A stretch of 64,000 bases of DNA. It comes from Chloroflexi bacterium HGW-Chloroflexi-2. GTDB taxonomy: Bacteria > Chloroflexota > Anaerolineae > Anaerolineales > Anaerolineaceae. The notes below the pieces were generated by a model. It searched no databases. It saw only the letters and a program-made list of their open reading frames with translations, and was not told the DNA's origin. Numbering within the stretch: position 1 is the stretch's first letter; every line of letters starts with the position of its first letter. The position numbers and the translations under genes were made by a program. The stretch spans positions 186,001 through 250,000 of the forward strand of contig PHBY01000004.1 of the NCBI GenBank assembly GCA_002840735.1, read 5' to 3'. Positions 3,745-49,545 of the stretch are shown here, piece by piece.

Positions 3745-3776
3745 AATCATTCTCCTTTTTTATTTTTTTAATGTGA

Positions 3777-17818: not shown

Positions 17819-17847
17819 GATTTACACTTTACAATTCAGAAGGGCTC

Positions 17848-20760: not shown

Positions 20761-22185
20761 ATGCATGCAGATCGTTTTTTTTCAGCTGATCCGACTATCA
20801 GAAAATTAGCACGAAATCTTTATCTTTCTGTGAAAAATCAACCAATTTTTGCTCCACATGGGCATGTTGATCCAGCTTTATTTTCAGACCCTAATGCTCG
20901 ATTTGGAAATCCTGTGGATTTGTTCATCCGACCAGACCATTATGTCATCAGGACTCTATATTCAAATGGTATTCCATTGCAAAAAATAGGTATCTCGCCG
21001 ACGGATCAAAAGGTGGAATATGATCCCCGAGAAGTGTGGGAATTGTTTTGCAGCCAGTTTCACCTTTTCAGAGCTACTCCTTCAGGTGTATGGCTAACTA
21101 CTTCTTTGAGTGATGTTTTTGATATCGAGCAAAAATTGTCAAAGGAGAACGCTGGCATTACCTATGAGATTCTGACAGAAAAACTCTCAACTGAAGAATA
21201 CTCCCCCAGAAACTTGTTTGATAAATTTAATATAGAATTGCTTGCCACAACTGATTCGGCTGCTGATTTCCTGCCGCACCATCAGAAGATCCAGATATCA
21301 AATTGGAAAAGAAAAATTGTCCCTACGTTTCGTTTAGATTCTCTCGTTCATTTATCCAATCCTGGATGGATCGAAGAGATCAAACGTTTGGCAGCAAATT
21401 CAAATATCGAAATCAACAACTTCAATACATTCATTCAGGCTCTGGAAAGTAGAAGAATTGCATTTCAAAGGTTAGGTGCGACTGCAACTGATTTTTCAGC
21501 AGAATCAGCATATACAGAAGAATTATCCCCTCATCAGGTTGACGAGATTTTTCAACGAGCTCTTAAAGGTCGGGTGGATCAGCAAGATGCATCTCAATTT
21601 GTGGCTCATATGCTCATGGAAATGGCCAGGATGAGTGCCGAGGATGGAATGGTCATGCAGTTTCATGCAGGGATTATTCGCAACCATAATACAGCTCTCT
21701 TCCAGCAATTCGGCCTTGATATCGGGGGAGATATCCCGGTCATTGTTGAATTTACACGGAATTTAAGACCTCTTCTGAGAAGGTTTGGTAATCATCCCAA
21801 TTTTAAATTAATTCTCTTCACCCTGGATGAATCAACCTATACGCGTGAATTGGCACCACTGGCAGGTCATTATCCTGCACTGCGATTAGGTCCACCCTGG
21901 TGGTTTAATGACAGCCTGAATGGGATAGAACGTTACCTGAACCAGGTGATGGAAACTGCCGGAATTTATAAAACGGCCGGGTTTAATGATGATACCCGTG
22001 GTTTTTGTTCCATACCAGCCCGGCATGACCTATGGCGGAGACAAGCAGCAAACTGGTTGGCAGGCTTACTGGCGCGCCATGTGATTGATGAAGAAGATGC
22101 AAACCAGATGATGTATGAATTGTGTATCGGTTTGGCTAGAAAAGCTTATAACACGGAAAGTAACGAAGATGGCAACCCAGTATAA
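20761..22185 (+). CDS. uxaC: Glucuronate/galacturonate isomerase
   Basis: The 474-residue protein has the uronate isomerase layout: PHGHVDPALF with metal ligands His33 and His35, PDHYVIRTLYSNGIP, MVMQFHAGIIRNHN in the middle, the KLILFTLDESTY region, and FNDDTRGFCSIPARHDLWRR near the end. UxaC isomerises D-glucuronate to D-fructuronate and D-galacturonate to D-tagaturonate. It therefore enters the pathway of the minus-strand operon at the UxaE or UxuB step. It has its own promoter region (160 bases of non-coding DNA upstream) and AAAGGA as ribosome binding site. No copy of the LacI-type operator was seen before it. Confidence 0.95.
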   Translation: MHADRFFSADPTIRKLARNLYLSVKNQPIFAPHGHVDPALFSDPNARFGNPVDLFIRPDHYVIRTLYSNGIPLQKIGISPTDQKVEYDPREVWELFCSQFHLFRATPSGVWLTTSLSDVFDIEQKLSKENAGITYEILTEKLSTEEYSPRNLFDKFNIELLATTDSAADFLPHHQKIQISNWKRKIVPTFRLDSLVHLSNPGWIEEIKRLAANSNIEINNFNTFIQALESRRIAFQRLGATATDFSAESAYTEELSPHQVDEIFQRALKGRVDQQDASQFVAHMLMEMARMSAEDGMVMQFHAGIIRNHNTALFQQFGLDIGGDIPVIVEFTRNLRPLLRRFGNHPNFKLILFTLDESTYTRELAPLAGHYPALRLGPPWWFNDSLNGIERYLNQVMETAGIYKTAGFNDDTRGFCSIPARHDLWRRQAANWLAGLLARHVIDEEDANQMMYELCIGLARKAYNTESNEDGNPV

Positions 22186-22780
22186 TGATCTTAAGAATGA
22201 AAAAGCTTTCTACCTGAGTTTCGATGGATCCCCCAATCCACCTGCTACCGATAGGCTTTTGAATTGCCTGGCTCAGGATGGTATTAAGGCGACATTTTTT
22301 ATGGAAGGTCGTCGTCTGGAAACGGAGGCAGACTGTGCTCGCAGGGTTCAGGCAGCCGGTCACGAGATTGGTAATCACTCATATAACCATCCGGAATTTG
22401 ACAAGATACCGATTCAGGAATGTATTAGAGAAGTAGAACAAACTCAGGCGATCATTCATAAAGAGTTAGGCTTTTATCCAAAACTTTTACGTCCACCAGT
22501 AGGTAAGTTAACCAAAGAAGTGGAAGATGTTTTTCTCACCAGAGGGTTTGATATCGTTCTTTGGAGTTTCAGCGTTCGAGATTGGGAAGGACCAGATGCG
22601 AAATCAGTTGCCAACCGAATACTTTCACAGTCAGTGCCAGGTGCGATTATTGCGTTGCACGATAAGACTCAATGGTTGATTGAGATTTTGGATGTTATTG
22701 TTCCACAATTAAAATTGGATGGTTTTCAATTTCGAAAAATAACTGAAAGTGGAAAAAAAGGTATTATTCAATTTGGATAA
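22169..22780 (+). CDS. NodB-like polysaccharide deacetylase family protein with altered motif 1
   Basis: 203 residues from ATG 22169, overlapping the end of uxaC by 17 bases, with GGAAAG upstream. NodB-type motifs are present: FYLSFDGSPNPP (motif 1, usually TFDDGPNP), HEIGNHSYNHPEF (motif 2 with both His ligands), LRPPVGK (motif 3), WSFSVRDWEGPDA (motif 4) and IIALHD (motif 5). In motif 1 the second Asp, a metal ligand, is replaced by Gly, so metal binding or activity may differ from the norm. No signal peptide is seen, so it is probably cytoplasmic, unusual for a peptidoglycan or chitin deacetylase. Translational coupling to uxaC suggests a sugar-related role. Confidence 0.75.
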   Translation: MATQYNDLKNEKAFYLSFDGSPNPPATDRLLNCLAQDGIKATFFMEGRRLETEADCARRVQAAGHEIGNHSYNHPEFDKIPIQECIREVEQTQAIIHKELGFYPKLLRPPVGKLTKEVEDVFLTRGFDIVLWSFSVRDWEGPDAKSVANRILSQSVPGAIIALHDKTQWLIEILDVIVPQLKLDGFQFRKITESGKKGIIQFG

Positions 22781-23038: not shown

Positions 23039-24562
23039 ATGATGTCAGAAGAAATCTTTTTATCATTTAGAAACATCCGAAAAAGTTTTCCTGGGGTGGT
23101 AGCGCTAGATGATATCAGCCTTGATATTTATAAAGGTCAGATACATGCCTTACTGGGTGAAAATGGTGCTGGGAAATCGACATTAATGAACGTCCTGTAT
23201 GGACTTTATCACCAGGATAGTGGTGAGATTTTTCTTTCTGGTGAAAAGTATGAACACAATACACCGAAAAATGCAATTCGACATGGGGTCGGGATGATAC
23301 ATCAACACTTTATGTTGATTCCTAACTTTACTGTGTTGGAAAATATAATTCTAGGCCAACCATCTCCCAAACCTCCCAAACTTGAAAAAGAGTACTTTCG
23401 GAATGAGATTTTGAAAGTCGCCAAAAAATTTGGGATTACTGTCGATCTTGATTTACTGGTTGAAGAAATCAGCGTAGGGATGCAACAAAAAATTGAAATT
23501 CTAAAGGCATTATACAAAGGCGCTGAGCTTCTCATACTGGATGAACCAACATCAGTTTTGACACCTCAGGAAAGTCAAGAATTATTTAAAATGCTTACGG
23601 AGCTAAATAAAAAAGGAACGACAATTATTTTTATTTCTCATAAATTGAAAGAAGTAATGCAAATAAGCGACAATATCTCCGTATTACGAGATGGTAAACT
23701 AATTGCAACAGTGAAAAAATCTGAAACAACACCACATGAGCTCTCGCGATTAATGGTGGGTCGCGAAATTATCACACAATATGATAAAGCAGAAGCGAAA
23801 ACTGGCGAAGATATTTTGATATTAGATGCTATTACATTAGAAGATCATCATAATCAACACAGACACCTACTAAAAAATGTATCCTTCAAAGTCAGTCAGG
23901 GCGAAATTGTTGGCATCGCCGGGGTGGACGAGAATGGTCAGAAAGAACTGGCAGAGATTATCAGTGGTTTGAGAAAACCAACCTCAGGGAAAATCAGCAT
24001 GTTTGGGAAGGATGTCACGCATTGTACCACCCGTCAATTGATTGAGATGGGTATGTCGTATATTCCTGCGGATCGAAGAAATCAGGGACTGGTGTTGGAT
24101 TTTAAAATTTCGGAAAATGCAATTCTTGAAACACATTATCAAAAACCATTTACAAAAGGTCTTTCGTTACAGAGAAAGGTGATTGATAAATTTGCGAATG
24201 AATTAATTCAGGAATATGATGTGCGGACACCTTCCATTAATGTGCCTGTGAAAAATTTGTCTGGTGGAAATCAGCAAAAAGTTATTGTTGGTAGAGAGTT
24301 TATGAAAAAAAATCACTTTTTACTGGTTATGCAACCAACCTGGGGATTAGATGTTGGGGCAATCGAGTATGTCCATCAGAAATTGTTAGAAGCACGTGAA
24401 AAAGGTGTGACAATTTTGTTAATTTCGACAGATCTGGAAGAAGTACGAAAATTATCAGATCGAATATTAGTGATTTATGAGGGTGAAATTGTAGGTGAGG
24501 TAGATTCTTCTACCGATATAGAGGAAATTGGCTTATTGATGGCCGGCTCTCATAAACATTAA
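23039..24562 (+). CDS. BMP/nucleoside-type ABC importer, double ATPase subunit
   Basis: 507 residues with two fused ABC domains, as in YufO/NupA and RbsA relatives. The first has Walker A GENGAGKST, the signature ISVGMQQK and Walker B LLILDEPTSVLTP. The second has the usual degenerate Walker A of this family (GVDENGQKE), signature LSGGNQQK and LLVMQPTWGLDVGA. It powers uptake with the lipoprotein and two permeases encoded downstream. GGAG at 7 bases sets the start. Upstream, 258 bases are non-coding and AT-rich with short palindromes; no purine riboswitch was recognised. Confidence 0.95.
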   Translation: MMSEEIFLSFRNIRKSFPGVVALDDISLDIYKGQIHALLGENGAGKSTLMNVLYGLYHQDSGEIFLSGEKYEHNTPKNAIRHGVGMIHQHFMLIPNFTVLENIILGQPSPKPPKLEKEYFRNEILKVAKKFGITVDLDLLVEEISVGMQQKIEILKALYKGAELLILDEPTSVLTPQESQELFKMLTELNKKGTTIIFISHKLKEVMQISDNISVLRDGKLIATVKKSETTPHELSRLMVGREIITQYDKAEAKTGEDILILDAITLEDHHNQHRHLLKNVSFKVSQGEIVGIAGVDENGQKELAEIISGLRKPTSGKISMFGKDVTHCTTRQLIEMGMSYIPADRRNQGLVLDFKISENAILETHYQKPFTKGLSLQRKVIDKFANELIQEYDVRTPSINVPVKNLSGGNQQKVIVGREFMKKNHFLLVMQPTWGLDVGAIEYVHQKLLEAREKGVTILLISTDLEEVRKLSDRILVIYEGEIVGEVDSSTDIEEIGLLMAGSHKH

Positions 24563-24648
24563 TTTAAAAGGAGGTGCTGCAAAGAAAAGCGATCAATCTA
24601 ATAAAAAACTGTTGTAAAAATCAAATTACCCAATTTTGAGGAGAAACC

Positions 24649-25704
24649 ATGAAGAAAATTAGTTTATTAATGATGTTTGTTTTGTTGGTTAGTGTGTTAG
24701 CTGCCTGCGCACCAGCTGCCGAACCCCCTGTTGCTGAAGAACCGGTGGCTGAGGAACCAGCAGCTGAAGAACCAGTAGTTGAAGAGCCTGCTGTGGAAAA
24801 ACCACTTCGTGTGGCGATGATTTTCAATACAACCATCAAGGATGGCGGTTATGCCCAGGCTGGTTATGAAGCATTGATGGCTTTAAAAGAAAAATACAAT
24901 CTCGAAGTCAGCTTTCAGGAAAGTGTGGGTGATGCTACTGTAAAAGATGTTCTGCGTAGTTATGCGGCAGACGATTACGATCTTGTTTATGCACACGAGC
25001 TTTATTTCACCGATGCTGTGAATGAGGTTGCTCCAGAATTTCCAGATGTTAAATTTGGTGTGACTGGCTACATGGCAGGTTCCCCGAATGTGGTTGCCCT
25101 GGATGCTACCAACTGGGAAGGCGTTTATCTAGCTGGTGTTGTCGCTGGGATGCTGACCGAGACCAATAAAATTGCTATGGTGACTGTATCGCAATCTCCC
25201 ATTGCACTCAAAATGGTCAATGCCATGTATAAGGGCGCATTGACACAAAATCCTGATGTTGAAATTTTGCATCTGTTCACAGGCAGCTTTGATGATGTTG
25301 TCAAAGCCAAAGAAATGGCTACTGCAGCCATCAAAGATGGCGCTGACATTGTTTACGGAAACGCTGGTATGGGTACCGTTGGTGCGATTGAAGCAGCTAA
25401 AGAAAATAACACTTTCGCCATTGGTTCATCTGTGGACCGCAATTCATTAGCACCAGAACTCGTTTTGACCAGTAATATCCTCGATAGTGGGCGGTATATT
25501 ACGATTGCCGTTGAAGGAATGATCAATGCTGATCTTGAATGGGGTCAGGTTTATGTACTGGGTGTTAAAGATGGTGTTGAATTTCTTGCCCCGTTCAATA
25601 ATGCAGTTCCACAAGAAGTGAAGGACGCAGTTGAACAAGCAACCCAGGATATGATTGATGGTAAGGTCGAACCCCCTCCATCCGATAAATATATGTGGGA
25701 ATAA
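24649..25704 (+). CDS. BMP-family substrate-binding lipoprotein
   Basis: 351 residues: a lipoprotein signal with lipobox VLAAC (Cys20), a low-complexity tether of repeated AEEPV units to about residue 52, then the BMP/PnrA fold (RVAMIFNTTIKDGGYAQAGYEAL, VYAHELYFTDAVNEVAPEFPD, FGVTGYMAGSPNVVALD, GAIEAAKE, GSSVDRNSLAPELVLTSNI). BMP proteins usually bind purine nucleosides or related heterocycles on the outer face of the membrane. The neighbouring cyclohydrolase and deaminase genes suggest a heterocyclic ligand. The gene is followed by a hairpin that could raise its expression over the permeases. Confidence 0.95.
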   Translation: MKKISLLMMFVLLVSVLAACAPAAEPPVAEEPVAEEPAAEEPVVEEPAVEKPLRVAMIFNTTIKDGGYAQAGYEALMALKEKYNLEVSFQESVGDATVKDVLRSYAADDYDLVYAHELYFTDAVNEVAPEFPDVKFGVTGYMAGSPNVVALDATNWEGVYLAGVVAGMLTETNKIAMVTVSQSPIALKMVNAMYKGALTQNPDVEILHLFTGSFDDVVKAKEMATAAIKDGADIVYGNAGMGTVGAIEAAKENNTFAIGSSVDRNSLAPELVLTSNILDSGRYITIAVEGMINADLEWGQVYVLGVKDGVEFLAPFNNAVPQEVKDAVEQATQDMIDGKVEPPPSDKYMWE

Positions 25705-25714
25705 CCGATTATTA

Positions 25715-25756
25715 ACCCCTCGATAAGAATATCGAGGGGTATCCCTCCTTTTTTTG
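25715..25756 (+). terminator. Intercistronic hairpin with T-run after the binding-protein gene
   Basis: An 11-bp perfect stem ACCCCTCGATA/TATCGAGGGGT with a 4-base loop is followed after 8 bases by TTTTTTT. In mid-operon it most likely acts as a partial terminator or mRNA-stabilising 3' end, giving more binding protein than permease. Confidence 0.8.
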
Positions 25757-25776
25757 AGTATGTACTAGGAAAAAAT

Positions 25777-26886
25777 ATGAGTGAATTATCCACCACAAGC
25801 AACTCTCCATTACCGATCAAAGAGCGGATCATCCTGTTTGCCAGAAACAATATGGGATTAATTTCTACATTGATATCGATTTTGGCTATCGGTCTAGCTT
25901 TGCTGATCGGAGGAATTTTAATTGCAATTGCTGGAATTAACCCCTGGGAGGCGATTACCTATTTAATCAAAGGATCGTTTGGAAATCGCTATGGTTTTGG
26001 CGAAACCCTAACGCGCTTTGTTCCGCTTTTATTTTGTAGTTTGAGTTTTGCCATTGCCCATAAGTCAGGGTTTTTTAATGTGGGTGCAGAAGGTCAACTT
26101 TTAATGGGGGCTGTAGGGGCAGTTCTGGTAGGTGCCTATATTGATGGATTACATCCAGTGCTTCATGTTTTACTTTGCATAATCGCTGGGATTATTTTCG
26201 GGGCAGTTTGGGCTGGGATTGCTGGTTTTCTTAAAATATTCCTTAGTTCTGACGAATTGATTAATACGATGATGTTGAATTATGTAGCCATCTTATTGGT
26301 TGATTATCTGATCCATGGGCCAATTAAACCACCAGAAAGCTATTTATATGTGTCGGCTACAATTTTGCCCAGCGCAAAATTACCGATTATATTATCCAAA
26401 TCACCATTGCATCTTGGATTTATTATTTCTTTACTGGTAACTGCTGCAGTGTTTTATTTAATTTATCGAACACCGATTGGGTATCAAATGCGTGCCGTTG
26501 GTGCAAACCGTAGGGCAGCTTCCTATGCTGGTATTAACATTGTTTGGGCTACGATTGTTGCGTTAATTACTACCGGCGGATTGGCGGGTATGGGTGGCGC
26601 AATGGAATTGATGGGCACCCAATTTAAGATTGTCAATGGGTTTTCTGCAGGTTATGGTTTTGATGGCATAGGCGTTGCTGTAATGGGACGTTACAATCCT
26701 ATCGGCATTCTACTTGCTGCATTGTTGTTTGCCGTGATCAGGGTAGGCATGGGAGCGATGCAACGTGGAGCGGGAGTGCCATTCCCATTGTTAAATGTAA
26801 TTCAAGGTCTGATTATTGTTTTTGTCATCGCCAGTGGTTATCTGACGAACAAATTATCCGAAACCGTGATTGGAGGTAGAGCATAA
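25777..26886 (+). CDS. BMP/nucleoside-type ABC permease 1
   Basis: A 369-residue membrane protein of the YufP/NupB type with about ten spans. It has KSGFFNVGAEGQLLMGAVGAV, the SSDELINTMMLNYVA loop and MRAVGANRRAASYAGINI, all characteristic of this BPD_transp_2 branch. It pairs with the permease encoded next; the two genes overlap (TAATG), so the heterodimer subunits are probably translated together. Confidence 0.93.
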   Translation: MSELSTTSNSPLPIKERIILFARNNMGLISTLISILAIGLALLIGGILIAIAGINPWEAITYLIKGSFGNRYGFGETLTRFVPLLFCSLSFAIAHKSGFFNVGAEGQLLMGAVGAVLVGAYIDGLHPVLHVLLCIIAGIIFGAVWAGIAGFLKIFLSSDELINTMMLNYVAILLVDYLIHGPIKPPESYLYVSATILPSAKLPIILSKSPLHLGFIISLLVTAAVFYLIYRTPIGYQMRAVGANRRAASYAGINIVWATIVALITTGGLAGMGGAMELMGTQFKIVNGFSAGYGFDGIGVAVMGRYNPIGILLAALLFAVIRVGMGAMQRGAGVPFPLLNVIQGLIIVFVIASGYLTNKLSETVIGGRA

Positions 26887-27815
26887 TGGATGCTGCCTGG
26901 ATGACAACAATTGTGACCTGGTTAACCATGTCAATACGCATGTCAATACCGCTTTTATTTCCAAGCCTTGGAGGGCTGATTTCCCAAAAAGCTGGTGTAT
27001 TTAATTTTGGATTAGAAGGCATGATGCTTTGCGGGGCATATTTCGGGTATTATGGATCGTATGTTACCGGAAGCCCGTGGATTGGTTTATTACTTGGAAT
27101 GATTTCCGGTGGTTTATTGGGTTTACTTCTGGCTTTTACATCCATTCATTTACGAGTCAGTCAGCTGGTGACCGGACTGGGAATTGGTGTTTTCAGTTTA
27201 GGAATAACAGGATATCTTTTCCGATTGATAGGTATCAGTACTGCGACTTCTGCTGCAACATTATTTAGCAACGTAAATTTTGGCGAATTGAGTTCCATTC
27301 CCATCTTTGGTGAAATTTTTCTTTCACATAATTGGATGGTATATGCTGGATTTGTGCTGGTGATTCTAATTGCCTGGTTTTTCTTTCACACTACACCTGG
27401 ATTGAATTTCCGCGCTGTGGGAGAAAATCCCCAGGTAGCGGACACGGCTGGTGTCAATGTGATTGTGAATCGTTATCTGGCAGTGGTGGTCAGTGGTATA
27501 TTGGCTTCTATGGGCGGGGCATTTTTAACCCTGACTCAAACGGCGTATTTCACCGAAAACATTTCTGCAGGTAGAGGTTGGATAGCGATTTCAGCGATTG
27601 TTTTAGGAAAATTTAATCCCTGGGGAGTGTTGTTAGCATGCCTGTTATTTGGCGCAGCTGACGCAGCTCAAATGCAAATACAGGTAATGAATCTGGGTAT
27701 TCCATACCAATTTTTGTTGATGACGCCATATATTCTGGCAATGCTGGCAATGGTTGGATTCGTTGGTAAAGTGAGGTCACCAGCAGCCATGGGTAAACCA
27801 TACGTAAAACATTAA
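26886..27815 (+). CDS. BMP/nucleoside-type ABC permease 2
   Basis: A 309-residue protein of the YufQ/NupC type. It has about eight spans and motifs parallel to its partner (SQKAGVFNFGLEGMMLCGAYFGYYG, VTGLGIGVFSLG, FRAVGENPQVADTAGVNV, GRGWIAISAIVLGKFNPWG). It shares one base with the preceding stop codon (TAATG). The next gene, the Mch-like cyclohydrolase, starts 61 bases later with its own strong ribosome binding site. Confidence 0.93.
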   Translation: MDAAWMTTIVTWLTMSIRMSIPLLFPSLGGLISQKAGVFNFGLEGMMLCGAYFGYYGSYVTGSPWIGLLLGMISGGLLGLLLAFTSIHLRVSQLVTGLGIGVFSLGITGYLFRLIGISTATSAATLFSNVNFGELSSIPIFGEIFLSHNWMVYAGFVLVILIAWFFFHTTPGLNFRAVGENPQVADTAGVNVIVNRYLAVVVSGILASMGGAFLTLTQTAYFTENISAGRGWIAISAIVLGKFNPWGVLLACLLFGAADAAQMQIQVMNLGIPYQFLLMTPYILAMLAMVGFVGKVRSPAAMGKPYVKH

Positions 27816-27876: not shown

Positions 27877-28842
27877 ATGTTTAGTATCAATCAACAAGCC
27901 GTCAAAATCGTCAAGGAAAAAATTCTACCCTTCGTAGAACAACTGAACTGTAGAGTGGTTCATTTAAAAAACGGAGCAACCGTTGTTGATATGGGTGTAG
28001 AAGCACCGGGCGGTTTTCAAGCCGGAAAGTTATTGGTGGAAGCTACCATCGGTGGCATGGGGCATGTTGATTTTGGACAATTTCATTTAGGTGAATTGCA
28101 TTTTTCATCGATTGATGTCTACATCGACCGACCCGTTGAAGCTACTTTATCTTCACAATTTTCTGGATGGAAGATGCCTGGAAAGGACATCCCGGGTTAT
28201 ATCAATCCGATTGGTTCTGGTCCTGCTCGCGCAATAGCCAGGAATGATATATTTTCGCAATCCTGGCATTATCAGGACATCCATCATGAAACTGTATTTG
28301 CAGCTCAAACTCAGGAAGTTCCTGATGAAAGTATTGCAGAGCTGGTGGCAGAAGCCTGTAAAATCAGACCGGAAAATGTTTATATTTTAGCGACAAAAAC
28401 TGCCAGTTTAACCGGATCCATTCAAGTTTGTTCACGTACCGTCGAAGCATCCGTTTGGCGGCTATACAGAAAGGGATTTGATATAGCAAAAATTATCAGT
28501 GGGATGGGCACCTGTCCAATTGCTCCACCGATAAAAGATGAACTGCTGGCTATGGATCGCGTCAATACTGCTTTACTGTATGGGGTCACAGTTCGCTATG
28601 TGGTGGATTGTTCTGATGAAGAAATATTGTCGGTTGTAAATGAAGCTCCTTTCAGTGCTTCTCGACGTTTTGGCGAACGATTCATCGACATTTTTGAAGA
28701 AGGACACCGGGATTTCTATGTGGTTGATAAAGATATTCACACCGTCGCCCGTTACGAATTTATGAATTACAACACTGGCAATATGTTCAGTGGAGGTATT
28801 TTACGAGAGGATATGATTAAAGAATCCTTTTACCGGAAATAG
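27877..28842 (+). CDS. mch: Mch-like methenyltetrahydromethanopterin cyclohydrolase
   Basis: 321 residues, the normal length for Mch. It carries the family hallmarks MGVEAPGGFQAGKLLVEATIGGMG near residue 40, PIGSGPARA (residues 111-119), TASLTGSIQVCSRTVEASVWRLY and GMGTCPIAPPIKDE. Mch interconverts N5,N10-methenyl- and N5-formyl-tetrahydromethanopterin in methanogens and methylotrophs. This enzyme is unexpected beside a BMP importer and a deaminase in a probable Chloroflexota genome, and Mer-like and AcsE/MtrH-like genes lie on the opposite strand a few kb away. It may act on a tetrahydrofolate- or methanopterin-type carrier, or on an imported heterocycle with a similar ring. TGGAGG sets the start. 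Confidence 0.85.
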   Translation: MFSINQQAVKIVKEKILPFVEQLNCRVVHLKNGATVVDMGVEAPGGFQAGKLLVEATIGGMGHVDFGQFHLGELHFSSIDVYIDRPVEATLSSQFSGWKMPGKDIPGYINPIGSGPARAIARNDIFSQSWHYQDIHHETVFAAQTQEVPDESIAELVAEACKIRPENVYILATKTASLTGSIQVCSRTVEASVWRLYRKGFDIAKIISGMGTCPIAPPIKDELLAMDRVNTALLYGVTVRYVVDCSDEEILSVVNEAPFSASRRFGERFIDIFEEGHRDFYVVDKDIHTVARYEFMNYNTGNMFSGGILREDMIKESFYRK

Positions 28843-28846
28843 AACA

Positions 28847-30244
28847 TTGGCAAGGAACATGAAAAATAAATTCGACATAATTATTCAAAATGCAAAGATC
28901 GTAGATGTTAATACCCATCTACTGAGTGATGAATCAGTTATCATTGTTGATAAAGGTGTCATCCAAAAGATCGGAACTATGGAATTATTGGAAACATCCG
29001 AGGCAACCAGAATCTGGGATGCAGAAGAGAAATTAATCCTTCCTGGCTTTATAAATACTCACTGCCACCTTTTCCAAACTTTCATGCGCGGTTTGGGTAA
29101 AGACCTGACCTTCATCAAATGGATGAATAACTCTGTAAGACTGATGATGCCTAATCTGGACGAAGAAGCTATATATCTGGCTGCAATGGTGGGATGCATG
29201 GAAGCGATTAAATCTGGTAACACAACCCTGGTCGATTTCATGTATGCACATGTCAAACCGCATTATGCTGATTACGTCTTGAAAGCATTTGATGATTGCG
29301 GTATTCGAGGTGTGCTGGCAAGAGGAATGACAGATGTCGAGCGCTTACCGGGCAGCCCGGTAAAACCAGCATCTTATGCCACCGCTGCTGATAGTCTGGC
29401 GGAGGTCGATCGATCTAGAGGTATGTATCTTGACCACCCACGAATCAGTTTTGCTGTGGCTCCCAGCGTGATCTGGGGCATGACAGCTGATGGGTTGAAA
29501 GAAATCGCAGCTTATGCCGAAATAAAAGGCATGATTGTAACCATGCACATTCTCGAAACTGTTGACGATGATCAATTCAGTCTCGATAAATACGGAAAGA
29601 CAACCATGCGCGTCCTGGAGGATGTGGGTATATTGGACACAGATTTTCTGGGTGTGCATGCCATTCGGGTATCGGAGGATGATCTGGCCTTATTTAAGAA
29701 GTATCAGACAAGAATTTCATATAACCCTCTGGCAAATATGATCCTGGGTTCAGGTGTCGCACCAATTGTTGACTTTACAAAACATGGGATAAATATCAGC
29801 CTTGGTACTGATGGTGCAGCCAGCAATGACAGTCAAAACTTGATTGAAGTGATGAAAGCGGGTGCTTTATTGCAGAAAGTACACAATCATGATTCTGCAG
29901 CCTTATCAGCCTGGGAAATCTTTTCTATGGCAACCGACCAGGGGGCAGCATGTATTAATATGCAGGATCAAATCGGCTCATTGACCGTGGGAAAAAAAGC
30001 TGATCTGATAGCGGTTGATTTCCAAAAACCGAACACAACCCCCAGTTATGATCCAATTGCCAGTCTGGTGTATTCCGGCAATAGTGAGAACATCGCCATG
30101 GCTATGGTAGAAGGTGAAATCATTTTTGATCATTGTCTTTTTATCAAATTCGATGAAAAAGAAATTCTTTCCAGGGCACAACAAAAAGCGGAAGAAATCT
30201 ACCGCTTTTCGATGGAAAAGAATAATTTTGTCCGAGATGTCTGA
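28847..30244 (+). CDS. COG0402 amidohydrolase/aminohydrolase (pterin, purine or cytosine-type deaminase)
   Basis: 465 residues with the metal-dependent deaminase pattern. THCHLFQTFMRGL holds His72 and His74 of strand 1; further ligands are His in VTMHILE and in FLGVHAIRV, then LGTDGAASNDSQNL with the catalytic Asp. The NDSQN and HLFQT wording is shared with guanine, 8-oxoguanine, hydroxyatrazine and pterin deaminases. The start may be the TTG at 28847 (GGAAA 8 bases upstream) or the ATG at 28859, whose AAGGA is only 2 bases away; I keep the TTG. It follows mch by 4 bases and ends one base from the stop of the convergent operon. Pterin deaminase is attractive given Mch but unproven. Confidence 0.85.
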   Translation: MARNMKNKFDIIIQNAKIVDVNTHLLSDESVIIVDKGVIQKIGTMELLETSEATRIWDAEEKLILPGFINTHCHLFQTFMRGLGKDLTFIKWMNNSVRLMMPNLDEEAIYLAAMVGCMEAIKSGNTTLVDFMYAHVKPHYADYVLKAFDDCGIRGVLARGMTDVERLPGSPVKPASYATAADSLAEVDRSRGMYLDHPRISFAVAPSVIWGMTADGLKEIAAYAEIKGMIVTMHILETVDDDQFSLDKYGKTTMRVLEDVGILDTDFLGVHAIRVSEDDLALFKKYQTRISYNPLANMILGSGVAPIVDFTKHGINISLGTDGAASNDSQNLIEVMKAGALLQKVHNHDSAALSAWEIFSMATDQGAACINMQDQIGSLTVGKKADLIAVDFQKPNTTPSYDPIASLVYSGNSENIAMAMVEGEIIFDHCLFIKFDEKEILSRAQQKAEEIYRFSMEKNNFVRDV

Positions 30245-30245
30245 A

Positions 30246-31466
30246 CTAATCAGGCATCTCGTTTTCATCCGATTTCGATGATTTGACACGATAAACCGTA
30301 TCCGCCTGAGTCATGGTTCTTTCAGGTGCAAATGGGCTGATATCGATCAGATCGCAATAACCTTTATCGATTAATTGTGTGACTATTTCACCAGCGATAG
30401 GTGAATTAACTATTGCTGACCGGAATGAAGCAGCCAGGATCAACCCTTTCAGGTCATCAACCGGGCCTAACAAGGGCATGCCATCCTCTGTGTAGGTAGT
30501 TGGAGCGGTCCAGGTGCGGATGATCTTTGCCTTTCTCAGGACCGGGAAAAAACGTATGGCAATGGTTGACATCGCTTTTGGTGCGACATGACTGATTTTT
30601 CCATCAAGCACTTCACCTGGCCGATCAGCCTGGGCAATTAAGAAATTACCTTCCGGAGTTTGGGATAAAACCATTACCGTTAATTCAGCATCTTCTGGCC
30701 CGTTAATTTCCATCTCAATATGGTCAGCAGAAGTAACGATTGAATTGATCTGCAAGTCTGAGAAACGCTCAGTAACCATGGCAGATGCTCGGAAGGTATG
30801 AATGTTCCAGTTGTGAGCGATCATTTCACCCAATTTACGTGTCCAGGCGGCTGTAGCCAGAACAATGGATCCTGAATAAAATGTTCCTTGGTTTGTTTCG
30901 ACCCCGATAATTCTTCCGCTTTGAATTAATAATTTCCTTACTTCGGTATAGGTATGTAAAGAAAGACCCTGCTGATTTGCTTTTCGCAGAAACGCCCACA
31001 TTAACAAAAATGGGTTGGCTTGCCCCTGATAGGATGCATAGGTGGCACCAAATAAACCATCCGGGCTTACTGCTGGCTCAATTTCTATCACTCTTTCAGG
31101 AGGGATAAACTCATACGGAATTCCGGCTTTTGATAAAATGCTGGCACGTTCAATCGAATTCATCCATTGTGATTCAGAACTCAATAATCTTAACGAAGCA
31201 ATTCGTCTGAAACCAATGGACATGCCTAATTCATCTTCCAATGTATCAAACCGTTTATAGCTTTTTAAGACCATTGGGATGCTGTGCTTAATCTCGACAT
31301 CATTGGATTGCACCATGCCAAAATTCGCACCAGAAGCGCCGGATCCAACATGTTTTTGTTCGATCAATGCGACAGAATACCCAGCTTTTGTCAAATGATA
31401 AGCAATGGAACAACCAACAACCCCAGCGCCTACAATGATCACATCAAATGTGTTCGTTGTTTTCAT
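30246..31466 (-). CDS. DadA/HcnC-like FAD-dependent amine oxidoreductase
   Basis: 406 residues of the DAO family: N-terminal FAD motif VIIVGAGVVGCSIAYHL, SGASGANFGMVQS, VLATAAWTRKLGEM in the middle and the C-terminal RTWTAPTTYTEDGMPLLGP typical of HcnC, sarcosine oxidase beta and opine oxidase beta subunits. Such subunits oxidise secondary amines. Its start overlaps the stop of the 50-residue FAD-motif protein (ATGA), and the HcnA-like [2Fe-2S] protein is upstream, so the three resemble an hcnABC-type complex. It is the last gene of the minus arm. Confidence 0.88.
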   Translation of the reverse strand: MKTTNTFDVIIVGAGVVGCSIAYHLTKAGYSVALIEQKHVGSGASGANFGMVQSNDVEIKHSIPMVLKSYKRFDTLEDELGMSIGFRRIASLRLLSSESQWMNSIERASILSKAGIPYEFIPPERVIEIEPAVSPDGLFGATYASYQGQANPFLLMWAFLRKANQQGLSLHTYTEVRKLLIQSGRIIGVETNQGTFYSGSIVLATAAWTRKLGEMIAHNWNIHTFRASAMVTERFSDLQINSIVTSADHIEMEINGPEDAELTVMVLSQTPEGNFLIAQADRPGEVLDGKISHVAPKAMSTIAIRFFPVLRKAKIIRTWTAPTTYTEDGMPLLGPVDDLKGLILAASFRSAIVNSPIAGEIVTQLIDKGYCDLIDISPFAPERTMTQADTVYRVKSSKSDENEMPD

Positions 31467-31615
31467 GGAAGTACCTCATACGTTTTAAAATATTGTCCAC
31501 CTGCGGAAGGTTGGATATCTATCAGTGTTACTTCCAATCCTAATTCCGAAGCGATTTTTGCAGCCTGGATACCACCAGGGCCGGCACCGATCACGATTAA
31601 TTCAGTCTGTTCCAT
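31463..31615 (-). CDS. 50-residue HcnB-like FAD/NAD Rossmann mini-protein
   Basis: The frame opens at ATG 31615, which overlaps the stop of the [2Fe-2S] gene (TAATG), and closes with a TGA overlapping the start of the DadA-like gene (ATGA). It begins MEQTELIVIGAGPGGIQAAK and continues with ASELGLEVTLIDIQPSAGGQY. This is the first beta-alpha-beta dinucleotide-binding unit of HcnB or OoxA proteins, which normally run to about 450 residues. The rest of HcnB is missing, but the frame is clean and coupled on both sides. It may be a functional mini-subunit or a decayed remnant kept for translational coupling. Confidence 0.75.
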   Translation of the reverse strand: MEQTELIVIGAGPGGIQAAKIASELGLEVTLIDIQPSAGGQYFKTYEVLP

Positions 31616-31920
31616 TATGATTGCACCTCAATGTCGGTGGAGATAATCATACCATCCGCGACTGGTGTTTGACACGCCCGTATGTTGTGATCTCCAATCA
31701 CCTTCACAAGACATTCACAACATATTCCTATATTGCAATAACTGCCAGATGCTTTTCCGGTTTGGTGCTTCCTTTGAAAAACTCGAATGCCTTCACAATG
31801 CAGAATAGTGGAGACCAATTCGCCTTCATAAGCGAAAATCGGTTTCTGATTAACTGTTATTTGAATTTGCTTTGCTTGTTGGAGTTTTCGACCATACCCC
31901 GGTTTATTTTCGATACGCAT
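31615..31920 (-). CDS. HcnA/SoxA-N-like [2Fe-2S] ferredoxin-domain protein
   Basis: 101 residues from ATG 31920. It has the plant-type ferredoxin pattern of HcnA and sarcosine oxidase alpha N-domains: ITVNQKPIFAYEGELVSTIL, then Cys62-x4-Cys67-x2-Cys70 with a final Cys83 in RACQTPV. These proteins relay electrons between the FAD-binding subunits of amine-oxidising complexes. An upstream TTG at 32001 would overlap the methyltransferase gene by 52 bases and has no ribosome binding site, so the shorter form is preferred. Its stop overlaps the start of the mini-protein gene. Confidence 0.85.
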   Translation of the reverse strand: MRIENKPGYGRKLQQAKQIQITVNQKPIFAYEGELVSTILHCEGIRVFQRKHQTGKASGSYCNIGICCECLVKVIGDHNIRACQTPVADGMIISTDIEVQS

Positions 31921-31949
31921 AAAGCCTGCTTTGATATTCTTGATGAACG

Positions 31950-32816
31950 TTATTGTTGACGTTGATGAGAGTTGCGATAATGCTTGAGGAATCTTTTGCA
32001 ATCAGGATCACGCTCTGTGAGCATATCCATTGCTCGTACACTGGAGATTAATCCTTGGATACCTGGATTGATGAAGGCTGCATCTAATCCCCAGGATAAA
32101 GCTCCCAGCAAATAAGCCAGATGGATGGGATCACGCATGGGCATATTACTACCTGCATTACCAATGCCTAATTGGGAAGTGATTCCCATTTCGCTCAATA
32201 ATGCAATAGTCTCCAGGGTGATGCGAAATGAATTATTTTGTAACAAAGCCACTGGCATACAGATTGCATCGATGACTATATCTTCTTTAGGAATACCAAA
32301 TTCCAAACAGGTATCGATTATTTTCTTTGCTGCTGCCATCCTTTCCTCAACAGTCATGGGTACACCTGATCCGGACAAACCGGTTGGCATGCCCGCCACG
32401 ACAGCATGATATTTTTTAGCTATTGGCAGTAGGGTTTCCAATAATTCCTGTTCAGCTGTAACAGTCCAGATGATGGATTTATAAGGAGATAATTCTGCCA
32501 GGGCAGCCTCGATGGCCTCTGCATTTCTTGTGTCCAAACCGACCGGCATTTTAGTTTCTTCATGGATGGATTTTGCCAATTTGGGTAACAGGTTGACTTC
32601 ATCGATCTCTGGATGTGTGATTAATATGGCAGTCATATCAGCACCTGATGATTTTCCCCATTTAGCCAGTTCGAGAAAATAATCAATATTTCCTTTGCTG
32701 ATCGGTTCGATGATTGAATCAGGCTTGTTAATCACATGCAATTGATCATTGATTAACATAGCAGGATGCCCCTTACCGAATGTTAGTTTACCGTTAGTGG
32801 AAGTTAGTTGAGTCAT
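31950..32816 (-). CDS. AcsE/MtrH-like pterin-dependent methyltransferase (DHPS-fold)
   Basis: The 288-residue TIM-barrel protein resembles methyltetrahydrofolate:corrinoid methyltransferases. It shows GADMTAILI after the second strand, VGLDTRNAEAIEAALA (Asp-x-x-Asn pterin region), LLPIAKKYHAVVAGMPTG, GIPKEDIVIDAICMPV, TSQLGIGNAGSNMP and GLDAAFINPG. Family members move a methyl group between tetrahydrofolate or tetrahydromethanopterin and a corrinoid protein. No corrinoid-binding protein is encoded in the window, so the partner is unknown. Positioned between the Mer-like and HcnA-like genes, it ties the amine-oxidising complex to C1-pterin chemistry. Confidence 0.8.
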   Translation of the reverse strand: MTQLTSTNGKLTFGKGHPAMLINDQLHVINKPDSIIEPISKGNIDYFLELAKWGKSSGADMTAILITHPEIDEVNLLPKLAKSIHEETKMPVGLDTRNAEAIEAALAELSPYKSIIWTVTAEQELLETLLPIAKKYHAVVAGMPTGLSGSGVPMTVEERMAAAKKIIDTCLEFGIPKEDIVIDAICMPVALLQNNSFRITLETIALLSEMGITSQLGIGNAGSNMPMRDPIHLAYLLGALSWGLDAAFINPGIQGLISSVRAMDMLTERDPDCKRFLKHYRNSHQRQQ

Positions 32817-32885
32817 GGTTGCTTTTCTGTATTGAATAATTTAAGTCGTTGATAAAAGTTCAATCAATAATTTATTAAAACTTTA

Positions 32886-33836
32886 TTATGCGCTTTCTTT
32901 TACGATAGAATATACATCCGACAACATGCTGATGTTCTTTTGTAAATCGCCAGTGGTTATATTTAAAACAAACATATCCAATTTATGATCATTTTTCAAT
33001 TGGTTTAGGATGAGGGAACATTCTGATGGTGAGCCAGCGACTTTGTATCGTTTGATCATGTCTTTTGTAATTAATTTAGCAACTGCATCAGTACCACCAG
33101 TATCCAAAGCTGATTTGAGTTGACCAATTTCATGCTGATTAAGAAATCCACTTAGTTGTCTTTCTGGGGTATCTTTTAATACATAAGGAAACAGATGGGT
33201 TGCATCTTCAATCATTTGTTCTGTGTAAGCGATTCGGTCCATATAGATCCTTAGTGGATGATTTTCGAATTGATCAACCAATTCTACTGCCGGTCCAATA
33301 TCAGATTTCACCATCAACAACACACCATCAGCCATGCGTCCAGCCAGTTTGAGCATTTGCTCTCCTCGAGCAGCAATCCAGATCGGGATATTTTGGGATG
33401 GTAATTCCATTTTTGCATTCTTAAGAGAAAAAAATTCTCCCTCAAAATCGAATGATTCGCCGGACCATATTCTTCTGCATATGTTGATACTATCCTTGAC
33501 CACTTTTAAAGGTTTTTCGCGTTGAATCATGAAAGTATCCATCACAATGGAACCACCAGCTACCAAAACAAGGATAGCTCTTCCATTGCTGCCTTGATTC
33601 AGGGTGGCAGTTGCAATCGCTGTAACGGCCGGGTGACGAGTATATCCATTTGTAACCGGTCCGAGAAATATCTTATGGGTTTCATGTGCTGCCAGACCTA
33701 GAGTTACCCAAACATCCGGGGTCATTCCCTCATCTGCAACAAGGCAATATTCATATCCGATGGATTCTGCGGCCTTAATAATCTCTATGATCTCGGATAA
33801 TGGCATTATGGGAATTATATTGATACCCATTTTCAT
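32886..33836 (-). CDS. LLM-class flavin/F420-dependent oxidoreductase, Mer-like
   Basis: The 316-residue luciferase-like monooxygenase fold most resembles methylenetetrahydromethanopterin reductase (Mer). Matching segments are INIIPIMPLSEIIEIIKAAESIGYEYCLVADE, IFLGPVTNGYTRHPAVTAIATATL, GRAILVLVAG, NIPIWIAARGEQMLKLAGRMADGVLL. Mer reduces methylene- to methyl-tetrahydromethanopterin with F420H2; the flavin-dependent relatives act otherwise. With an Mch homologue in the convergent operon, a Mer-type role is suggested, but LLM families are wide and specificity is unsure. An AGGA lies about 12 bases before the first ATG, a rather long spacing. Confidence 0.8.
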   Translation of the reverse strand: MKMGINIIPIMPLSEIIEIIKAAESIGYEYCLVADEGMTPDVWVTLGLAAHETHKIFLGPVTNGYTRHPAVTAIATATLNQGSNGRAILVLVAGGSIVMDTFMIQREKPLKVVKDSINICRRIWSGESFDFEGEFFSLKNAKMELPSQNIPIWIAARGEQMLKLAGRMADGVLLMVKSDIGPAVELVDQFENHPLRIYMDRIAYTEQMIEDATHLFPYVLKDTPERQLSGFLNQHEIGQLKSALDTGGTDAVAKLITKDMIKRYKVAGSPSECSLILNQLKNDHKLDMFVLNITTGDLQKNISMLSDVYSIVKESA

Positions 33837-33977: not shown

Positions 33978-35126
33978 TTACTTAAAAAATCTTTTGGGAG
34001 AATATGGTTCAAGGAAATCTGATGCCAAATTATGACTTTGAGATAAAACATGATCAACAATTTGTCTTGAAAAAATGGGTATTGTTGGTATGGCTAAATG
34101 GAAAGCAGATGCGATATAAAGATTTTCTACTTGTGGTAACCAACCAATGATGGGTTGATAATCTTTTGAAAAAGGACTGGGTGCCGACCACGTGCGTATC
34201 ATTCTAATGTTATTCAAAGTCGGAAAGAACTCCTTCATTTTTTGGTTTATTGCAGGCATTCCCCAGGCACTGCTGGTTCGTTTGATTTTATTAACTGGTT
34301 GAATTGCGTTTGATATTAATAAGCAACCATTGATATGTTGACCCAAACCCAGTGTAACACTTTTCTTTTCCCCGTGGACGGAATCATAAAACCCATTGGT
34401 CCCGATGTGGTGATGAAGAATTTCAGGTAGTGGTTCACTTACCATAGCTTCAGCCTTGGTGAAGAATAGAGGCAAGTCCACGCCAACTTTGTGGGTTAAC
34501 GATCTTGACCATGCTCCAGTGGCTAAAATAAAATATTTTCCGTAATAGGATTGCGTTCTCGTTTTTACTCCCACCAGCTTATTATCTTCAGTGATGAAAT
34601 GTTCCACCTTCGAAAAACATTTGATGACAGCACCTAACTTTTTGGCTGATTTGAAATAGCCCCAACCGAACTTAAACGGATTAAGGTGGCCTTCTTCGGC
34701 AAGAATTGACCCGACGCAATTTCCAGAATTCAAGAAAGGTTCAATTTCCTTAATTTTTTCCGGTTTTACAATTTCAGCGTAGAGGCCTAAATCTCTCATC
34801 CAGGCAATTTTCTCGAGATGAGATGCTAATTGTTCTTCGGAATCGTAAAGTGTTAGATGTCCAGGTAAATTCCACTCTAAATCGATTTCTAATTCATCAC
34901 CCAAAGAGGGTAACTCCGAATATCCTTGATAAACTATTCTTAAATATTCTTGTGTTTCACTATCAAATATTTGTGCTCGACCAGCACAGGCGGAAGATGT
35001 GCCACTACAAATGTGTTTGCTTTCGAGTAATAACGTGTCGATTTTTGCTTTTGCGAAATGATAAGCAATCGCACAACCAGCAAATCCTCCACCGATAATG
35101 ATGACATCGAATGTATTATTTTTCAT
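33978..35126 (-). CDS. Second DadA-like FAD-dependent oxidoreductase
   Basis: 382 residues of the DAO family with VIIIGGGFAGCAIAYHFAKA at the N-terminus, CSGTSSACAGRAQIFDSE, ILATGAWSRSL and the C-terminal RTWSAPSPFSKDYQPIIG. It parallels the gene at 30246 (the same RTW-SAP/TAP region), so both may be catalytic subunits for related amines. The gene is separated by 141 bases from the Mer-like gene downstream and by 12 bases from the polytopic membrane protein gene upstream, so its operon membership is not certain. Confidence 0.85.
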   Translation of the reverse strand: MKNNTFDVIIIGGGFAGCAIAYHFAKAKIDTLLLESKHICSGTSSACAGRAQIFDSETQEYLRIVYQGYSELPSLGDELEIDLEWNLPGHLTLYDSEEQLASHLEKIAWMRDLGLYAEIVKPEKIKEIEPFLNSGNCVGSILAEEGHLNPFKFGWGYFKSAKKLGAVIKCFSKVEHFITEDNKLVGVKTRTQSYYGKYFILATGAWSRSLTHKVGVDLPLFFTKAEAMVSEPLPEILHHHIGTNGFYDSVHGEKKSVTLGLGQHINGCLLISNAIQPVNKIKRTSSAWGMPAINQKMKEFFPTLNNIRMIRTWSAPSPFSKDYQPIIGWLPQVENLYIASAFHLAIPTIPIFSRQIVDHVLSQSHNLASDFLEPYSPKRFFK

Positions 35127-41624: not shown

Positions 41625-42728
41625 ATGGAGGAATTACACCTCTATCTTCAAATCGCTGAGTCAATTCGCAGAGATATTTTGGGGGGGAAGTTGAATCCTG
41701 GAGACAAATTGCCCTCTGTCAGAGCATTAAGCCAGCAATGGGGGTGTACTCAAGGCACAGTACAACGTGCTTATCACGAACTATCGCAACAAGGAATATT
41801 GGATAGTCGTGCAGGCAAAGGAACGATTGTGCGTGGAAATCTTAGTCAGGCGCAACGCAATAAGGATACTGTAATTCGTCGGGCGACATTGGTGAATCGC
41901 TCAGAAGAATTTCTTTTGGAAGCTTTATCGATGGGATACAATCTTGAAGAAATTCAGAATTCTATCAACATCGCCATGGATCGTTGGAAATTAGCGGATA
42001 TTCAAGATCAAAACTATATAAAAAAGACGATCAAATTTATTGGAAGTCATGATCCATTGTTCAACTCAATTTCGACAAGATTTTCTGAAATTTTTCCTGG
42101 TTTTGGATTAAAGGTCAGATTTTCAGGCAGTTTGGGTGGTTTGAAAGCTCTCAAACAACATCAATCTGATATTTCCGGTTGTCACTTGTGGGATTCTGAA
42201 AGCAACTCATACAATGTAGAAGATGTTAAGAAAATTTTTTCAGGTGAGAAAATGGTTTTATTAACCCTGGCTCATCGACGTTTGGGATTAATTCTTCCGC
42301 CTGACAATCCTCAAAAAATTTCTTCCATTGCCGATGTCATTCAAAATCGAGTTCGATTCGGCAATCGTCAACCTGGGGCTGGCACCAGGGTCTGGTTTGA
42401 TATGATGTTAATAAAGAAGGGCATCTCACCTGATCAGGTAAATGGGTATGATCAAGAGTATTTCACGCATTCGGAAATCGGACGAGCTATTGCTGATGGC
42501 AGCGTTGGGGCTGGAGTGGGTCTGGAATCCGTAGCTGTGGCTTATGGTTTGGATTTTGTATTCTTGACACTTGAAAGGTATGATCTGGTTTTTTATCACG
42601 ATCAAATTAAAGAGGAACCATTTAACCTATTAATACAATGGTTTCAACATGCTGAGGGTAAAAAATTTATTAAACAGTTCCCTGGTTATGATAATACTGA
42701 AACGGGGAAGATCCAGTTTTCAATGTAA
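41625..42728 (+). CDS. GntR-type regulator with C-terminal periplasmic-binding-like ligand domain
   Basis: 367 residues. The first 75 are a GntR winged helix (IAESIRRDILGGKLNPGDKLPSVRALSQQWGCTQGTVQRAYHELSQQGIL). After a linker, residues from about 140 form a PBP-like domain (IKFIGSHDPLFNSIS, LKVRFSGSLGGLKALKQHQSDISGCHL, FGNRQPGAGTRVWFDMML, AIADGSVGAGVGLESVA) of the kind fused to molybdate- or substrate-responsive HTH proteins. It probably senses a small ligand and controls itself and the VOC gene downstream. AAAGGAG precedes the start. Confidence 0.88.
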   Translation: MEELHLYLQIAESIRRDILGGKLNPGDKLPSVRALSQQWGCTQGTVQRAYHELSQQGILDSRAGKGTIVRGNLSQAQRNKDTVIRRATLVNRSEEFLLEALSMGYNLEEIQNSINIAMDRWKLADIQDQNYIKKTIKFIGSHDPLFNSISTRFSEIFPGFGLKVRFSGSLGGLKALKQHQSDISGCHLWDSESNSYNVEDVKKIFSGEKMVLLTLAHRRLGLILPPDNPQKISSIADVIQNRVRFGNRQPGAGTRVWFDMMLIKKGISPDQVNGYDQEYFTHSEIGRAIADGSVGAGVGLESVAVAYGLDFVFLTLERYDLVFYHDQIKEEPFNLLIQWFQHAEGKKFIKQFPGYDNTETGKIQFSM

Positions 42729-49365: not shown

Positions 49366-49545
49366 AATATCTCCCTCTCCGATTCTCATTTTAAGTATTG
49401 ACGATAAAACAAGTCATTTTGTTCCTGATAGCATATGGATTGGGTTAGATGACATACCTCATGCTTGTGTTTAATTAATCCATTTCTAACTTGATGGCAT
49501 CGTCTTTGATCTATAATTAAGAAAACTAATTATCCAGGAGAAACA

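Follow-up and report, generated by a model that had tools for sequence, protein, structure and literature searches.

Mch serves in metagenomics as a marker of one-carbon (C1) metabolism based on tetrahydromethanopterin (H4MPT). Why, then, does a full-length mch homologue lie beside importer and deaminase genes in Chloroflexi bacterium HGW-Chloroflexi-2, where, as the initial annotation rightly stressed, H4MPT is unexpected? We analysed a 64,000-nucleotide stretch of this genome (contig PHBY01000004.1, positions 186,001 to 250,000), referred to as the window. The initial annotation had read its gene island as a pathway that imports a pterin, purine or N-methyl heterocycle, deaminates or demethylates it, and moves C1 units on a pterin carrier. 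Our results make it very probable that the window protein belongs to a separate Mch clade that is associated with import islands instead of H4MPT gene clusters. More tentatively, we propose that the island imports and breaks down a nitrogen ring compound, most likely a pteridine of the pterin or folate type, with a repurposed Mch carrying out ring hydrolysis.

The Mch homologue (27877..28842, plus strand) was correctly described as full-length: it spans the whole Pfam model (PF02289, 333.9 bits) and passes the TIGR03120 cut-off (270.6 versus 228.8) over residues 3-318 of 321. A first tree of 53 Mch proteins split into groups of 36 and 17 with support of 100/99; in an enlarged tree of 74 (21 rows added), the split was 51 versus 23 with support of 100/100. 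The window Mch fell with 50 others, from Chloroflexota and Bacillota, into the clade that we call orphan, outside the archaeal and methylotroph Mch group. The latter, canonical group comprised two PDB enzymes, one haloarchaeon, methylotroph-type plasmid copies, and Bacillota and Anaerolineaceae copies. Outside the trees were five short Mch paralogues, the L087 and L088 fragments, and the L067 and L085 Mch, the last two found by tblastn; L067 was sorted as canonical, and L085, L087 and L088 as orphan, by similarity or neighbours instead of the tree.

Residue patterns (A. fulgidus numbering) followed this split. Arg183 and Glu186, which we take to be the catalytic pair of Mch, were both present in all 53 rows of the first tree. 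After enlargement, Arg183 occurred in 74/74 rows, 51/51 orphan ones included, and orphan position 186 held Glu in 45 of 51 rows and Asp in six, while one canonical row, L122, reads Ala186; the window protein keeps both residues. (PDB entries 4gvr and 4gvq differ at Glu186.) In contrast, position 140 was Glu in 23/23 canonical rows and Gln in 51/51 orphan rows, and position 280 was Phe in 23/23 canonical rows versus His, Asp or Asn in 51/51 orphan rows. Position 120 was Asp in 50 of the 51 orphan rows. The 140/280 rule was seen on 53 rows and then held for all 21 later rows; the invariance of Glu140 and Phe280 is an observation of the present analysis and no published criterion. Compared with canonical Mch (TIGR03120; PDB 1qlm, 4gvq), the window protein is alike in length, catalytic pair and family score, but differs in its separate clade, in Gln140, Asp120 and His280, and in a locus that lacks the searched H4MPT genes and has an importer and a deaminase; some orphan genomes also hold several paralogues. 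Since the protein passes the standard cut-off, its use as a marker of the methane pathway could be misleading, and the Glu140/Gln140 and Phe280 rule offers a simple way to separate the two clades. Structure predictions were poor, with a mean pLDDT of 40.1 for the window Mch and 54.4 for the window LLM protein described below.

At five loci a short Mch paralogue of 240-271 residues lies beside a full-length orphan Mch (L030:14669-15388, L031:10965-11720, L080:8725-9537, L081:8561-9337 and L082:9897-10700). None of the five keeps Arg183 and Glu186 together, which suggests that the short and long proteins form a two-subunit enzyme, perhaps a hetero-oligomer. A search of plasmids found no short paralogue; one Azospirillum record lacked annotation.

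To compare neighbourhoods we took 19 kb around each Mch, or as much as the contig allowed, added five plasmid loci as controls, and counted neighbours at 45 orphan loci in 27 genomes versus 22 canonical loci. H4MPT genes (Ftr, FwdA, MtdB, RimK, Fae or RFAP synthase) stood near 19 of the 22 canonical loci but near none of the 45 orphan loci; the queries were drawn from L090, L091, L093 and L128, so these loci match themselves in part. The canonical loci without such neighbours were L066, L077 and the haloarchaeal L089. None of the six families was matched in the 64 kb window, in a search that for Ftr and Fwd was confined to the window.

Conversely, an importer (BMP or ECF) was present at 30/45 orphan versus 2/22 canonical loci (28/43 orphan loci without L087 and L088), and a COG0402 gene at 19/45 versus 1/22. 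Four further families were absent from all 22 canonical loci, namely 2-oxoacid-dehydrogenase E1 parts and SDR proteins (16/45 orphan loci each), FMN-reductase-like proteins (11/45) and NodB homologues (10/45). LLM genes were counted at 9/45 orphan loci versus 1/22, with that of L009 uncounted, and AcsE-like (7/45), DAO (7/45) and AOR (6/45) genes each versus 0/22. Taken singly, the LLM, AcsE-like, DAO, AOR, FolB and M20 families did not differ significantly from the controls. Loci and alignment rows share descent, so the Fisher tests overstate independence. All counts are lower bounds for orphan and canonical loci alike; control loci L089, L092 and L093 cover about 9 kb and the others 8-19 kb, and several orphan stretches end at contig ends. 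SDR, GntR, LacI, lipoate ligase, Mo-hydroxylase and YgeW-like genes were named by eye; the remaining recurrent families were assigned by profile scans of one or a few members each, with the rest joined by BLAST.

Three orphan loci carry E1 alpha and beta genes together with a stand-alone lipoyl-domain protein beside Mch (L110:11121-11366, L123:8193-8438 and L125:10970-11203). No acyltransferase E2 was noticed in these stretches, and the layout recalls the glycine cleavage system.

A pattern scan of named genomes with the window Mch, which detects close relatives only, returned seven relatives of 76-95% identity. The order importer, Mch, COG0402 was kept in all six related Chloroflexota contigs (L006-L011), and the arrangement is therefore not due to chance. 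In the seventh relative, a Clostridia metagenome-assembled genome (MAG; L012), Mch lies beside DAO, ECF transporter, HcnA-like, HcnB-like and COG0402 genes. The conserved neighbourhood with importer and deaminase that had been expected thus extends over Chloroflexota and Bacillota. Mch occurred in 2/400 sampled Chloroflexota genomes (the window genome among them), in 13/147 genomes of the window's family, with a maximum of five copies per genome, and in 25/398 genomes of the phylum of L012, here called Bacillota. Of the 13 positive family genomes, G000 (the window genome) and G938-G940 were outside the refetched set, as was the G849:C68 fragment. Five genomes hold both Mch kinds (G642, G903, G834, G832, which equals G404, and G849, which equals G403; the genes of G832/G404 and of G849/G403 are 100% identical). 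The orphan Mch is therefore not simply a replacement of the canonical form.

The remaining genes of the window island bear on its function. Those named initially (Mch, COG0402, DAO/HcnC-like, HcnA-like, AcsE/MtrH-like and Mer-like LLM) were all found in place with profile matches, in two convergent operons downstream of a BMP-type ABC importer (23039-27815). That list was correct but incomplete, as it left out a second amine oxidase gene, DAO2, and a NodB-like gene before the importer. The latter, on the plus strand, encodes a hydrolase of the polysaccharide-deacetylase family (22166..22780, alternative start 22115; PF01522, 94.3 bits). It is followed on the same strand by a complete BMP/PnrA importer set: a double ATPase (23039..24562; an ORF with counterparts 81-97% identical in L006-L011), a substrate-binding lipoprotein (24649..25704; PF02608, 167.8 bits) and two permeases (25777..26886 and 26886..27815; ORFs kept in L006-L011). 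The COG0402 amidohydrolase/deaminase gene (28847..30244, plus strand; PF01979, 207.6 bits) starts 4 bases past the Mch end. Profiles place its product in the superfamily, but below the cut-off of all 25 NCBIfam models among the matches listed; a pterin-deaminase activity is putative.

The convergent operon follows 1 base further on. Its order on the minus strand is DAO2 (33978..35126; a second FAD amine oxidase, PF01266, 172.5 bits, kept in L007 and L008), a Mer-like LLM gene (32886..33836; PF00296, 157.5 bits), an AcsE/MtrH-like gene for a pterin-binding-fold protein (31950..32816; PF00809, 32.6 bits), an HcnA-like [2Fe-2S] protein gene (31615..31926, alternative start 32001; PF13510, 72.2 bits), an hcnB remnant (31463..31615) and DAO1 (30246..31466). 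DAO1 is an FAD amine oxidase of the HcnC or sarcosine oxidase beta type (PF01266, 203.5 bits), and its top PDB match is 1y56 chain B, named sarcosine oxidase. The HcnABC-like complex proposed initially holds only for HcnA and HcnC: hcnB is reduced to 50 codons, comprising the N-terminal FAD-binding segment only (61% identity to residues 3-46 of the L008 protein), and the full subunit set is not present. Relatives L007 and L008 have long hcnB ORFs (506 and 471 aa), and the window genome holds an HcnB homologue elsewhere (C16:70344), 43% identical to the L008 protein. The island thus resembles HcnABC and heterotetrameric sarcosine oxidase in its adjacent HcnA-like and HcnC-like genes, but differs in the hcnB remnant and in that Pfam listed no GcvT-type domain in the three proteins scanned.

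The two further pterin-linked proteins of this operon depart from their namesakes. Among LLM families the window protein is nearest to Mer, the F420-dependent methylene-H4MPT reductase (PDB 8qpl; PRK02271, 168.4 bits, versus 84.7 for the next non-Mer family), and its PDB relatives are likewise Mer, but it misses the Mer cut-off of 276. It has Asn at Mer Glu6 and Gly at Mer Asp96, and both Mer residues are absent from 11/11 Mer-like copies of orphan loci; position 178 was left out as unmappable in the alignment. In the accessible text of PMC11094777, Glu6 of Mer is catalytic and Asp96 contacts the pyrimidine, and a Glu6Gln variant retains 0.4% of kcat. The AcsE/MtrH-like protein shares the pterin-binding fold with that family and scores 144.6 on NF005719 against a cut-off of 259. 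Of four residues that presumably serve the pterin site, it keeps Asp75, Asp160 and Asn199 and has Trp in place of Asn96. Position 96 is Trp in three Chloroflexota copies and Asp in two Bacillota copies, while two further Bacillota copies (L070/L071), several kb from Mch, retain Asn96. No corrinoid protein was noticed near the window gene. Because of the lost Glu6 and Asp96 and the changed Asn96, the two proteins seem to be Mer and AcsE relatives that have shifted to a different substrate. Collectively, the separate Mch clade, the absence of the six H4MPT families from 45 orphan loci and these residue changes led us to reject an H4MPT C1 pathway in the window; a transfer of C1 units between methylene, methenyl and methyl states on an H4MPT-like carrier is not supported. 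Regarding active sites, on which the initial annotation had made its case depend, Mch keeps its pair in a conserved neighbourhood and the LLM protein lacks its residues. From the original proposal, import and deamination of a pterin or purine remains, we infer, the best idea.

What, then, might such islands do? We infer the substrate, the order of steps and each activity from gene content and sequence. The BMP-type importer would take up the ring compound, the COG0402 enzyme would strip its exocyclic amino group, and the Mch-like enzyme would act on the reduced ring, by then probably deaminated (2-oxo), and hydrolyse one of its cyclic C-N bonds. Cleavage of a C-N bond in the side chain may fall to the DAO/HcnA amine oxidases, and the Mer-like and AcsE-like proteins may have the same compound as their substrate. 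Side-chain tools of a different kind are present in other islands (FolB, SDR plus 2-oxoacid dehydrogenase, AOR, M20 amidohydrolase). Importers, together with GntR- or LacI-like regulators seen by eye in many locus stretches, suggest that uptake and breakdown are inducible, and the meeting of four pterin-linked families, Mch, Mer-like, AcsE-like and FolB, points to pteridines. In four genomes FolB adjoins the orphan Mch pair, and all four have a second, better-scoring FolB elsewhere; that of L082 exceeds the FolB equivalog cut-off (98.4 versus 72.15) and the Pfam cut-off. Genome searches found no FolB in G000, G019, G401 and G402. The change from acid to amide at Mch position 140 is what we would expect if the pterin's exocyclic amino group were replaced by oxygen, because an Asp of E. 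coli MTHFR binds pterin N3 and the amino group (PMC11094777, accessible text).

For folate, a COG0402 enzyme would account for deamination, an M20 amidohydrolase for amide cleavage and an amine-cutting oxidase for cutting the C9-N10 bond. The M20 peptidases include carboxypeptidase G, and M20 and COG0402 genes occur together in L084/L085 (the L085 protein profile-tested); they recall the pair of carboxypeptidase G and pterin deaminase and were therefore counted for a folate-type substrate. Known folate breakdown rests on these two enzymes (Variovorax F1, Arad3529; PMC9513972, accessible text), to which the M20-type and COG0402-type enzymes of some islands are similar. That work concerns two enzymes of a soil bacterium, however; the passages considered here mention no Mch, importer island or ring-opening step, and call the origin of lumazine-6-carboxylate and aminobenzoyl-glutamate elusive. 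It is possible, if rather doubtful, that orphan Mch proteins are a new cyclohydrolase family that opens the ring of reduced pterins in their deaminated (2-oxo) form. The family would then be central to modular islands for anaerobic pteridine degradation, and the enzymes for the side chain (FolB, SDR plus acyl-lipoyl dehydrogenase, amine oxidase, M20 amidohydrolase) would be exchanged to suit each pterin. If so, they would supply the missing steps after folate or pterin deamination. If these islands degrade pteridines, the carbon and nitrogen of folate and pterins would have a route of breakdown under anaerobic conditions, and an archaeal-type C1 enzyme would have been turned to catabolism. Judged by title or abstract opening among the matches listed, which cover subscription journals poorly, we found no published account of such a clade or island.

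Several observations weigh against a pteridine substrate. FolB was found at only four of the 45 orphan loci and also at two of the 22 canonical ones, and M20 at two orphan loci (0/22 canonical). In the PDB, the BMP protein is nearest to 7x0r 'Lbp' and to the atrazine-binding protein 6pi5, and the COG0402 protein is closest to MTA/SAH deaminase and atrazine chlorohydrolase. The hcnB gene is broken in the window genome, and no regulator gene lies inside the window island (the nearest GntR-like ORF is at 41625-42728). A contact of Mch residue 140 with the pyrimidine ring is only putative. Finally, xanthine dehydrogenase-like (Mo-hydroxylase) subunits in four orphan loci (L011, L078, L123 and L125) and a YgeW-like carbamoyltransferase in two (L123 and L127), all recognized by eye, point to purines.

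Purine catabolism, perhaps of an N7-methylpurine, is accordingly one of the two rival explanations that survive best, at a low probability. Here a nucleoside-type importer and a guanine-type deaminase would be followed by a Mch-like enzyme opening the imidazolium ring to a formamide, which the NodB-like protein would remove. BMP importers are mainly nucleoside importers, COG0402 membership and the NodB homologues of 10/45 orphan loci fit, and a RibD_C-like protein occurs in three loci. However, the neighbouring FolB, AcsE-like and Mer-like proteins are out of place in this scheme, and the COG0402 protein falls far short of the cut-offs for guanine deaminase and SsnA. Inspection by eye of ORFs that mostly had no profile scan revealed no allantoinase, formiminotransferase or xanthine amidohydrolase.

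Alternatively, and in our view equally unlikely, the island may truly serve C1 metabolism, with a reduced pterin other than H4MPT (tetrahydrofolate or an unknown pterin) as carrier, close to the idea of the initial annotation: an N-methyl or methylene group from an imported amine would pass to the carrier, on which the Mch-, Mer- and AcsE-like proteins would convert it. The retained Arg183 and Glu186 of orphan Mch, the clustering of Mch, Mer-like, AcsE-like and amine-oxidase genes in the window, L007 and L008, and Asn96 in the L070/L071 copies speak for it, as does a CofE-type F420 ligase in the window genome (PF01996, 244.2 bits; the only cof gene searched). Yet the Mer-like proteins lack the very residue whose exchange nearly abolishes Mer activity, a Mer-like or AcsE-like gene is missing from most orphan stretches as fetched, and a C1 cycle offers no evident role for an importer and a deaminase. 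Moreover, FolD, the usual folate enzyme for the Mch kind of step, was present in 19/19 orphan-Mch genomes tested, out of 27; the folate version of that step is therefore already covered.

A third explanation, that H4MPT or a precursor is scavenged from methanogens and used with an adapted Mch, we consider very improbable. It draws on the lack of RFAP synthase in the window genome at E 10, a weak negative in this phylum, and on ECF importer genes beside a canonical Mch cluster in L128. On the other hand, orphan Mch is unlike all 23 canonical rows at positions 140 and 280, no Ftr, FwdA or MtdB match lies near any orphan locus, and five genomes keep both Mch kinds. No RFAP synthase above cut-off turned up in the window genome or in eight relatives; among Bacillota one was present in 9/11 canonical-Mch genomes versus 0/14 orphan-only genomes, with no match in the canonical-side genomes G529 and G560. 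A mis-sorted or contaminating archaeal gene, suggested by the 2/400 Chloroflexota count, was rejected as having a negligible chance, because six more independent MAG contigs share the gene order, 13/147 family genomes are positive, and the window lies within a 314 kb contig with even GC throughout the island (genome of 4.1 Mb, completeness 99.87%, contamination 2.54%; closest named contigs, Anaerolineaceae MAGs).

Some canonical-side loci deserve mention. In L128 (12576-17000), from the window's family, the Ftr/Fwd/Mch cluster adjoins the ECF importer genes, an arrangement suggestive of uptake of a pterin cofactor or of a precursor. The window-family genomes G404/G832 and G403/G849 (L109 and L120) have Ftr/Fwd-type clusters with RFAP synthase under cut-off; as a clean marker, RFAP synthase thus works in the Bacillota sample and fails in Chloroflexota. 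Stand-alone canonical-side Mch genes occur at L066:9220-10200 and L077:9286-10257, in genomes without RFAP synthase match or H4MPT neighbours, and that of L077 adjoins a BMP importer.

Elsewhere in the window, positions 43237-49389 form one ORF of 2050 residues, by eye an alpha-2-macroglobulin-type protein. Two similar permeases in tandem (16814-18852), which by eye resemble Pit phosphate permeases, follow a PhoU-like gene, and positions 2620-3750, inside a sugar-acid catabolism cluster, encode a creatininase-family protein, also named by eye.

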